Source: a bacterium
GTDB taxonomy: Bacteria; UBA4055
Reading direction: 5' to 3'
DNA length: 11,569 bases
Assembly (NCBI GenBank): GCA_029559475.1
Contig: JAKQBN010000028.1
Location: 1-11,569 of the forward strand
The notes beneath the pieces were generated by a model, which saw only the letters and a program-made list of their open reading frames with translations, searched no databases and was not told where the DNA came from. Of the stretch, positions 1 to 2,830 are shown in pieces. The stretch's first letter is position 1. Each line of letters starts with the position of its first letter. Position numbers and translations under genes: made by a program.

Positions 1-995
1 AGTATAGTTTTGTACTGCGCTGTAAAAAGCTGTTTATTGTTTTTTGGCAATGTAATTTCAACTACTGCTTTGTTGTTCTGCTTGCAGACGATGATTCCGA
101 TAGTTTTGTTTTCTTCTTTTGATTTAATGAACCTGTCATAATAGTTAATATACATCTGCATTTGTCCGAGATCCTGATGAGCCAGTTTGCCAATTTTTAG
201 ATCAATTATTACAAAACATCTAAGAAGCCTGTTGTAAAAAACCAGATCAACAAAATAATGTTCTTCGTCGAATGTGAACCTGACCTGCCGCCCCCCGTAA
301 AAGAAACCTTTGCCTAATTCAAGCATAAATTTCTCAATCTGATTGATTATCGCAGTCTCCAATTCTGTTTCGGAGTATTTCGCTTTTTCTTCAAAACCCA
401 AGAACTCAAGTATAACCGGACTTTTTATTATATCATGAGGTTTTTCAATTATTTGTCCCTTTTTGGAGAGTTCCAAGACTTTCTTTTTGTCCCTGCTGAG
501 TGAAAGTCTTTCGTACAGACCTGAATCAAATTGTCTCCTCAGCTCTTTTATGCCCCAGTTGCTTTGCAAAGATTCAAGCTCGTAGAACTTTCTTTCAGCT
601 TCGTTTTCAATTCGTGACAAGAATATATAATGACTCCATGTTAAGAAACTACTCGGCAATTTCCGAGAAAGCTTCTCGGAAATTAGTGTGTTGTTCAATA
701 TCCGAGAACCGTTCTCGGATATTCGGATCTGCGTGCTGTAGATCAGATAGAATCTCCGCATATTTTCAAGGTTATCTACTGAGAATCCCTTTCCCAATTT
801 TTTGGAAAGATCTGCAGAAACTTTTTTTAGAAGTTTTTTTCCATAGCCAGCCTTTTCTTTACCTGATTGCAGTTCTTCTACGATCATACTTCCGACTGAG
901 AAATAAGTAAAAACCATCACAGTATTCGAAGTCTTTACAACAAACTTTCTTGCATCTTCTATCAGATCTATTATTTTCTTACTCAATTCTATCAT
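1..995 (-). CDS. YhcG/DUF1016-family PD-(D/E)XK nuclease, 3' end beyond left edge
   Basis: Reading the minus strand from the ATG at 995 gives 331 open codons to the window edge. The family is usually about 340-380 residues, so only the last few dozen are probably missing. The N-terminal DUF1016 helical domain (about 1-170) has the family signature of a FY..Y motif near 82-87 and LTWSHY at 118-123, followed by ELRRQ near 151. The C-terminal nuclease domain (about 185-331) shows E212, D250 in FVDLVFY and D265-x-K267 in DLKIGK, then GQMQMYINYYDR; these are the expected PD-(D/E)XK residues. Family members often lie inside restriction-modification loci, but their substrate is poorly defined. The start codon overlaps the upstream methyltransferase stop as ATGA, with an AGAGG ribosome site 5 nt upstream, so translation is probably coupled. 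Two 13-codon palindromic repeats fill residues 90-115. Family assignment is confident; a role in DNA defence is inferred from the neighbour. Confidence 0.9.
   Translation of the reverse strand, partial: MIELSKKIIDLIEDARKFVVKTSNTVMVFTYFSVGSMIVEELQSGKEKAGYGKKLLKKVSADLSKKLGKGFSVDNLENMRRFYLIYSTQIRISENGSRILNNTLISEKLSRKLPSSFLTWSHYIFLSRIENEAERKFYELESLQSNWGIKELRRQFDSGLYERLSLSRDKKKVLELSKKGQIIEKPHDIIKSPVILEFLGFEEKAKYSETELETAIINQIEKFMLELGKGFFYGGRQVRFTFDEEHYFVDLVFYNRLLRCFVIIDLKIGKLAHQDLGQMQMYINYYDRFIKSKEENKTIGIIVCKQNNKAVVEITLPKNNKQLFTAQYKTI
658..723. repeat. Two in-frame 27-bp palindromes, 39-bp period, inside the YhcG gene
   Basis: Positions 658-684 have perfect 12-bp arms (AATTTCCGAGAA and its complement) around the spacer AGC. 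Positions 697-723 have perfect 12-bp arms (AATATCCGAGAA and its complement) around the spacer CCG. Their starts are 39 bp apart, exactly 13 codons, so they also form a direct repeat that keeps the reading frame. On the minus strand they encode RISENGSRIL and LISEKLSRKL, in the variable linker just before the conserved LTWSHY motif. Each can form a hairpin in DNA or mRNA. Whether they are a mobile palindromic element, a binding site or a repeat expansion is not known. Confidence 0.9.
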
Positions 996-2830
996 ATTTT
1001 CCTCTTCTTTACGAATATGTTTATGCTTACGCCCTGCATGATGTCAAAGACATTTTCGTCTTTTGAACCGTCGGGACAGACTTCCTTCTTCTTTGCGTTG
1101 CCGTGAAGGTCGAGTATATAAACTTTGTCGAATGTTTCTAGCAGGTGCTTGCGCATTTGCCTGTGTATTATTCCGTCAATGAAGCTGTTGTTCGATATAT
1201 ATGCAAGTATGCCTTCGCCCGTTCTATCAATTAGAGATTCTGCGTAGCGGATGAATTTGATGTAATCGTCGGATAGAGGCTGTATGTTCCTTTCGTTGAG
1301 GTCTTTTTTATAGTCAACCATTAGTTTTTCGATCCATTCCGATTTGTTGGAGCTGCTTACGCTGTACGGCGGGTTGCCCATGACGACCATGACCGGTGTG
1401 TCCCGTTTGATGTGGTTGGCCTCGTTTGCTTCGGATGAGAGCCATGATGCGAAGAGCGTGCCTGTGTCGGGATGGTATTCTTCAAGGCTGTTGGTGAGAT
1501 AGACCCTGAACCTCTGTTCTTTTGCGGGTTTGTAGCCCGTTTCTTTTAGGAGGATGTCGAGCTTGAGGTGAGCCATTGCGTAGCTTGCCATTAGCAGTTC
1601 AAATCCGTTCAGGCGCGGGAGCAGCTGGGTTTCGACATAATTGCTCCAGATCCCCTGCTGGCCTTCAAATTTTGTGTGTATCTGCCTGATGACTTCCGCC
1701 AAAAATGTGCCTGTTCCCGCTGCGGGGTCGAGTATCTGTACTTTATGAACATTATCTTTGGTTCTGCTGCTGTCGGCTAATCCTAAAGGGAGATTGAATT
1801 CCGATTTTAAGATGTCGTCAACTGCGCGGACGATGAAATTTACCACCGGCTGAGGCGTGTACCATACCCCGCGTGCTTTGCGGAGCTTCGGGTCGTATTC
1901 AGACAAAAATGTTTCGTAAAAGTGGATGACGGGGTCTTCGGTCTTTGTGTCCCTGCCGTAGTCTTTGAGCAGTTCTTCAACATTGCAGGCTAAAAATACT
2001 TCTACGAGGTTGTCAACTATCCATTTTATTCTGTCGTCAAGATCGGGTCCGGCTATATATGCGAATAATTTCCTTAGGAAAGGGTTTGATTTTGGTATGA
2101 GTTCCGCCGCTTCCTGTCTGCTGAAGCTGTTGAGGTTGGTGTCGTGAAGGCGGGCCGCGAACATTCCGTAAGCTATGGTCTGAGCATAAACATCCGCGAA
2201 ACCTTTGGGCGTGATGTCGTGAATTAAGATCTCCCTGAAGGCGTTCATCTGATCCTTGAGCGTACTGTTCTCCTGAGTTTCTTCGTCGGAAAGCAGAGCT
2301 TTTTCAATAATGTCAGCTAAGAGACGCGCTTTGTTCGCCATCATTTCGGCAAGTTGTTTTGAGCTTGTGATCGTCTGTCCGATATGCGTACAGAAATATT
2401 TCAATAAGTATGTAAAGCTCTCAAAGTTCTGCGTTAAAGGCACGATCTTACCGTTCCGCACTTCTCCGATGCTTATCTTCTGGCTGAACTGACCGTTGGA
2501 ATAAAAGTGAAAGCTGAGATAGTCTGTAAATATCAGGTTGCTGAGTGAATTTTTATAGCGGTCGAACTGCTCCTTGTTGCCGGTTTTCTTATTTCCGTCA
2601 AGGTCGGTGTCACCTATGTCCTTCGCTTCGATAAATCCCACCGGAATATCTTTCCGCGTCAGGATAAAGTCAGGCGCTCCGCACTTCTGCCGCTTGGGCT
2701 CGTTCGTCGCCCTTACGCCCGGTTCCATGCTTTCGATAAGCTGCTGAAGGTCGCCCCGAAAAGTGTGCTCAGTCGCGTTCCCGAGTTTATATCTCGTGTT
2801 AATGCTGGAAATGTATTCTTGTAAGGTCAT
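992..2830 (-). CDS. N6-adenine DNA methyltransferase with N-terminal PD-(D/E)XK-like domain (type IIG/ISP-like), C-terminally truncated
   Basis: The 612-residue protein should transfer methyl groups from S-adenosylmethionine to adenine in DNA. The N-terminal part (about 1-115) looks like a PD-(D/E)XK nuclease domain, with PD at 53-54 and E68-A-K70. A helical linker follows, then the gamma-type methylase core: GVWYTPQPVVNFIVR near 321-335, SAM-binding motif I DPAAGTGTF at 368-376 and catalytic NPPY at 486-489. Type ISP/IIG relatives usually carry several hundred further residues with the target-recognition domain. Here the protein ends at ...SINIFVKKRKI, straight after the methylase core, and the next gene begins inside its stop codon. 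The enzyme may therefore need a separate specificity subunit, act without one, or be inactive. No helicase domain is present. The start at 2830 follows a GGAAG site and a good promoter. Methylase identity is sure; functional state is not. Confidence 0.9.
   Translation of the reverse strand: MTLQEYISSINTRYKLGNATEHTFRGDLQQLIESMEPGVRATNEPKRQKCGAPDFILTRKDIPVGFIEAKDIGDTDLDGNKKTGNKEQFDRYKNSLSNLIFTDYLSFHFYSNGQFSQKISIGEVRNGKIVPLTQNFESFTYLLKYFCTHIGQTITSSKQLAEMMANKARLLADIIEKALLSDEETQENSTLKDQMNAFREILIHDITPKGFADVYAQTIAYGMFAARLHDTNLNSFSRQEAAELIPKSNPFLRKLFAYIAGPDLDDRIKWIVDNLVEVFLACNVEELLKDYGRDTKTEDPVIHFYETFLSEYDPKLRKARGVWYTPQPVVNFIVRAVDDILKSEFNLPLGLADSSRTKDNVHKVQILDPAAGTGTFLAEVIRQIHTKFEGQQGIWSNYVETQLLPRLNGFELLMASYAMAHLKLDILLKETGYKPAKEQRFRVYLTNSLEEYHPDTGTLFASWLSSEANEANHIKRDTPVMVVMGNPPYSVSSSNKSEWIEKLMVDYKKDLNERNIQPLSDDYIKFIRYAESLIDRTGEGILAYISNNSFIDGIIHRQMRKHLLETFDKVYILDLHGNAKKKEVCPDGSKDENVFDIMQGVSINIFVKKRKI

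Follow-up and report, generated by a model that had tools for sequence, protein, structure and literature searches.

The methylase gene that runs into a YhcG gene in this bacterial DNA encodes the catalytic half of a split type IIG restriction-modification (R-M) enzyme, and relatives carry the specificity half as a separate gene beyond YhcG. The window, by which we mean the whole stretch of DNA analysed, is the entire contig C12 (11,569 bases) of a draft genome of 83 contigs. Our favoured reading, which we consider likely, is that of a split and probably working enzyme in which the joint between methylase and specificity parts is a slot for cargo genes that has spread by homologous recombination.

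The catalytic half is a protein of 612 residues encoded on the minus strand (992-2830; open reading frame and translation) and ending in ...GVSINIFVKKRKI (in another extract of the translation, ...MQGVSINIFVKKRKI). It combines the motifs of an N-terminal PD-(D/E)XK-type nuclease (GAPDFILTRKDIPVGFIEAK) and of a gamma-type N6-adenine methylase (DPAAGTGTF, NPPY), as a type IIG enzyme does, and Pfam assigns it the domains N6_Mtase and Eco57I. When it is aligned to the full-length family, as the original prediction had proposed, only positions 1-658 of the PADLOC type IIG model PDLC03610 (length 1096) are matched. Its phmmer matches in the PDB are LlaBIII, DrdV and LlaGI, the alignments to LlaBIII and LlaGI beginning in the methylase part. 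Plasmid relatives are named 'type ISP' by NCBI; the helicase domain of that type did not appear in a Pfam scan of the protein. The specificity domain that should follow at the C-terminus of a type IIG chain is absent, the chain stopping four residues past SINIFVK. As first noticed, the methylase ends exactly where YhcG starts, its stop TGA and the YhcG start ATG sharing the four nucleotides ATGA (992-995, minus strand). The preceding joint (1002-1030, minus strand), located by pattern match to the codons V-S-I-N-I-F-V-K-K-R, has the AGY serine codon and the K after VK that mark split alleles.

The cargo gene (3-995, minus strand) shows 331 residues of a YhcG/DUF1016 protein with a helical N-domain and a PD-(D/E)XK nuclease domain, identified by Pfam (DUF1016_N, E 1.5e-35; YhcG_C, E 8.4e-51) and by its match to the PADLOC phage-defence candidate PDC-S02 (E 2.9e-122). 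The gene runs off the window, which is the whole contig, and the specificity half is unseen because base 1 is the contig end. Beyond positions 1-2 would thus lie the C-terminal part of YhcG and the specificity (TRD) half that is expected to follow; both are present in the relative G005 (L118:6414-7917). A search of the window's draft assembly with a close relative's specificity half did not find it elsewhere, the sole match being an intact paralogue on contig C37, with 36% identity.

The source genome stands close to MAGs labelled Candidatus Delongbacteria. In G005 (locus L118) the methylase half is 95% identical to that of the window, and YhcG is 97% identical at the DNA level. There, on a 94-kb contig, the 612-residue half leads through the same ATGA into YhcG and then into a separate gene of 416 residues starting MNNKKTAQVYHFDLYGTRDEKYEFL, the genes overlapping at both joints. 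This second gene matches Pfam PF18135 (Type_ISP_C, E 7e-87) and spans positions 654-1077 of PDLC03610, complementary to the 1-658 of the first half. Downstream halves of split relatives have their own start codon and a single PF18135 match (E about 1e-85), with no Methylase_S. From its likeness to G005, the window enzyme probably has such a second half of its own, past the contig end. Of the origins first put forward for the truncated methylase, a YhcG cassette that pushed the remainder to the left is what relatives display, whereas a deletion fusing two genes is unsupported.

Within the same genus, G002 (matching L006 of isolate UBA12480) has a normal enzyme of 1029 residues, and G001, whose first half is 98% identical, is unsplit and lacks YhcG. 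In the G001 copy (G001:C417, L085) the first half contains an internal stop or frame break, and the linker is rich in K (VKKKDKKK). Two Delongbacteria relatives (L118:1268-3760 and L021:1246-2779) have an HTH/IrrE-type peptidase gene (PD-Lambda-2_B-like) and an AlbA_2 Schlafen-type gene ahead of the split enzyme, at full length in L118 but in a much shorter form in L021; the window copy is without this neighbourhood.

A scan of the genome collection, with searches of relatives, of Bacteroidota and of three Bacteroidota orders, gave 165 distinct loci showing the joint. Seventeen of these, the window included, are split, a ratio that is not a population frequency because the searches favour near relatives of the window enzyme. 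All 17 split chains stop two to four residues past the last K of SINIF(V/I)K, and the 124 complete unsplit enzymes continue for 380-665 residues beyond it (typically ~430), with no chain of intermediate length. The expectation that relatives are normally longer therefore holds, and 612 residues is not the normal family length. First halves are 80-98% identical to unsplit PDLC03610 members. The split loci, those named all being MAGs, come from Delongbacteria, Ignavibacteria and several orders of Bacteroidota, and many lie far from either end of a long contig (94 kb, 278 kb, 213 kb, 303 kb). An assembly or frameshift artefact at the contig end, a suspicion raised by the window YhcG running off its contig, is hardly credible when the same joint is read within contigs of many independent assemblies. 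On viral contigs the relatives showing the joint are all unsplit, and a joint-pattern search there gave no match. The plasmid collection contains relatives of the enzyme, and the one looked at individually (L154) is a truncated remnant. Three loci (L039:9681-9788, L051:9928-10095 and L083:10407-10538) have extra copies of the enzyme's last 36-56 codons 3' of an intact unsplit gene, a pattern such as insertions at the 3' end would leave if they duplicated the end of the gene.

The genes found at the break point are of six or more kinds. YhcG fills 13 of the 17 slots (with two copies each in L042 and L226), KilA-N is found in L014 and L052, RhuM in L226 and DUF3800 in L228; the L056 slot holds a relative of the REP-associated transposase (66 bits, under the model cut-off of 80) and the L268 slot a PIN-like gene, by a weak match. 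Recurring as it does in 17 or more loci, and with inserts of this diversity, the break looks like a reusable slot, not an accident. PADLOC phage-defence candidates among the cargo are PDC-S02 (YhcG), PDC-S22 (KilA-N), PDC-S05 (RhuM) and DUF3800_VII, and the embedded gene may be accessory cargo, probably antiviral, that is expressed alongside the enzyme and gets swapped within the slot. YhcG is widespread anyway, with 37 of 118 Bacteroidota genomes having it, so its place as top cargo is not in itself surprising; the surprise is the exact, repeated position of the insert.

Seen by itself, the window shows only a methylase half and YhcG, as would a two-protein enzyme without a TRD in which YhcG replaces the specificity domain. 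We regard such a replacement as very improbable. All 15 split loci with enough contig downstream have a second half, unrelated genes can occupy the slot, and YhcG is a free-standing family found outside R-M loci as well. The two-gene variant of the original prediction is accordingly real, recurring in 17 loci, but YhcG is not the supplier of the missing function, since the specificity half lies downstream wherever the contig reaches it and other genes fill the same slot.

The joints themselves have the layout of translationally coupled genes. ATGA overlaps occur at the first joint in 7 of the 17 split loci (6 of 16 besides the window), and the recurrence that the original prediction had asked about is seen in G005, with the same 612-residue half and YhcG; gaps of 1-11 nt are found in six loci and of 48-156 nt in four. 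At the second joint, 11 of the 15 readable cases have the ATG of the second half inside the embedded gene, 8-17 nt from its end. The genes run in the order RM half, YhcG, specificity half, with the split at the methylase/specificity joint, and would be carried on one transcript and coupled in translation through overlapping stop and start codons. In the unsplit enzyme the break falls in a loop (618-626) between two strands, according to predicted secondary structure and a modest-confidence AF2 model, ~65 residues ahead of the Pfam specificity domain. The mean pLDDT of the AF2 models is 71 for the unsplit enzyme and 70 for the lone second half, and their nearest folds are DrdV, LlaGI and LlaBIII, at rmsd values too large for interface claims. 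The two halves may reassemble non-covalently into a working enzyme, by analogy with type I M + S and type IIB RM + S, and the split system would then retain enzyme activity.

In a rival reading, YhcG and the other small genes would be selfish mobile cassettes that disrupt the enzyme at a tolerated joint, and the split enzyme would be mostly a dying relic; a REP-associated-transposase relative is among the inserts (L056), the second halves of L042 and L084 are interrupted, and an in-frame stop is found in the unsplit G001 copy too. However, at least nine second halves are intact (L014, L049, L056, L118, L226, L228 and L266-L268), the remainder besides L042 and L084 being cut by contig ends or unseen. 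Values of dN/dS are low, at 0.04-0.10 for first halves, where pairwise values partly reflect time before the split, and 0.08 for the last 190 codons of L118 against L006. The joints, moreover, retain overlapping starts and stops, and the inserts are mostly lone coding genes without a transposase or visible terminal repeats. We therefore think that a selfish insertion is rather unlikely as a general account, and some split systems may still be decaying, because the specificity halves of L042 and L084 look broken. The interrupted half of L042 contains, at L042:10951-11200, an open reading frame that by sequence appearance resembles a DUF559-type protein. Intact second halves, constraint and the reassembly of known enzymes together favour a working split enzyme with embedded cargo.

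Split alleles do not form a clade, and both trees rule out the split state as a clade marker. Placing the split label on the first-half tree takes 12 changes for 13 rows (12.5 with shuffled labels), and starred branches alone force at least six changes of split state; the tree of the conserved C-terminal 170 residues needs eight changes for eight split rows. Split alleles nevertheless have common marks at the joint. A K or R follows VK in 17/17 split and 13/148 unsplit alleles (Fisher 2e-15), and the serine codon is AGY in 17/17 and 39/148 (Fisher 1.6e-9), both tests treating as independent alleles that are not; such markers point to shared ancestry of the joint. Excess identity among split alleles covers the ~32 codons leading up to the joint (z 2.95 and 1.75), with none comparable further upstream, and excess similarity is also present where the second half starts, over its first 60 nt (permutation p 0.0005). 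Selection on coupling sequences could be a partial source of this joint similarity (z about 3).

The main evolutionary rival is a single ancient split, repeatedly re-fused in most lineages and with its cargo swapped in situ. It would explain why all split joints have K or R following VK and an AGY codon for the serine, and the VKKKDKKK... linker of the unsplit, 98%-identical G001 resembles and could be a healed split joint. Most unsplit enzymes, on the other hand, keep a VKTGKKKKNELGKV-type linker, and split rows mostly nest singly among unsplit ones in both trees. The joint similarity also fades within ~32 codons upstream, which fits import over descent, and we judge an ancient split with repeated re-fusion to be improbable.

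Two further observations speak for the spread by recombination that we favour. Between the window and G005, dS is 0.51 over codons 1-466, 0.15 over codons 467-612 and 0.105 in YhcG, and the low-dS stretch, into which the end of the methylase and the cargo both fall, reads as a recombination tract. At L014:8660-8830, after KilA-N, a short second-half start is joined at a common AAATATGC to a duplicated methylase end, downstream of which follow YhcG and then the true second half; this arrangement is a recombination fossil in which a KilA-N split allele was joined to a YhcG split allele. The module of slot plus joint would thus travel among related enzymes by homologous recombination, its arms being the conserved end of the methylase and the beginning of the specificity half.

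YhcG genes have a further feature near the codons for W-[S/T/G]-H. Two palindromes of ~25 bp (659-683 and 698-722, minus strand) stand in the window gene just before the LTWSHY codons. Counting exact arms of at least 8 nt in the 160 nt that precede the W-[S/T/G]-H codons, we find palindromes at that place in 16 of 25 YhcG genes. Their density there is 5.5 per kb, ~30-fold above that of the remaining gene sequence (0.17) or of codon-shuffled genes (0.15). A separate plasmid set gives 6.25 against 0.31 per kb, with six of seven motif-bearing YhcG genes positive. There are one to three palindromes (~25 bp) per gene in the window, L021, L226, L229, L266, L267, L269, L302, L304, L305, L309 and others, and their sequence varies between genes, with position and symmetry kept. 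The L266 and L267 proteins have nearly alike C-terminal parts and different N-terminal parts, a pattern that suggests domain exchange near the palindrome. It is speculation that the palindrome is a putative YhcG binding or cleavage site on its own gene or mRNA. We found no description of palindromes in YhcG in the open-access literature. A further reading would make the joint a dedicated mobile slot, with the still-working split R-M system as an addiction-stabilised carrier, YhcG, KilA-N, RhuM, DUF3800 and PIN genes exchanged as cassettes, and YhcG perhaps recognising the palindrome in its own gene; taken as a whole, we find this doubtful.

Embedded defence genes are already known between genes of multi-gene systems; what differs here is that similar genes repeatedly interrupt a gene that is normally undivided, and do so at one precise domain joint. 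We found no description of a split type IIG gene with cargo in the open-access literature. The slot yields natural split type IIG enzymes on which reassembly and coupled expression can be tested, reading its contents is a route to further defence candidates, and it is a case where the spread of embedded cargo by recombination is traceable in DNA.

Among known systems, the PDLC03610 enzymes (relatives DrdV, LlaBIII and LlaGI) share the nuclease, methylase and Type_ISP_C parts and their order, normally in one chain of ~1030-1100 residues, whereas here there are two genes with a third between them. Type ISP enzymes, also one chain, have a helicase-like ATPase between nuclease and methylase, and the window protein has no helicase match. 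The type IIB enzymes BcgI and BsaXI are alike in having nuclease and methylase in one protein and specificity in another, and BsaXI activity was reconstituted by mixing RM and S (PMC9159934). BsaXI S, however, has two TRDs of the HsdS kind, whereas the split relatives have a colinear single Type_ISP_C and unsplit close relatives exist. A further mark of the BcgI/BsaXI kind is cutting to either side of the recognition site. Gamma-type methylases are known as M~S or M+S (PMC3874165), and the EcoKI M and S proteins function both as overlapping coupled genes and as a fused chain (PMC3510504); the EcoKI hsdM/hsdS fusion is engineered and type I, whereas the split here is natural, type IIG and with cargo.

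Embedding itself has precedents. Type I hsdM-YhcG-hsdS operons, the rlo/mlo genes that intervene in C. jejuni hsd loci (PMC5183652) and the PDC candidates likewise place single accessory genes between methylase and specificity genes, and 'guilt-by-embedding' is a concept for finding defence candidates, cited in PMC12255303 and PMC12988326; a single gene recurring between components of a defence system is also what the slot shows, with YhcG in 13 of 17. The window's own genome has an hsdM-YhcG-ORF-hsdS locus with a second YhcG (G000:C37:106500-112000, L122), in which the 283-residue ORF before hsdS has no Pfam or PADLOC match. ATGA overlaps occur in hsdM-YhcG-hsdS operons as well. A Citrobacter plasmid has YhcG between a type I methylase and hsdS, joined to each by an ATGA overlap, and a Methylobacter plasmid has hsdM-YhcG-hsdS, also overlapping. 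In type I systems and the embedded candidates, however, the insert stands between two normal genes, whereas here it interrupts a normally undivided gene at a domain joint.
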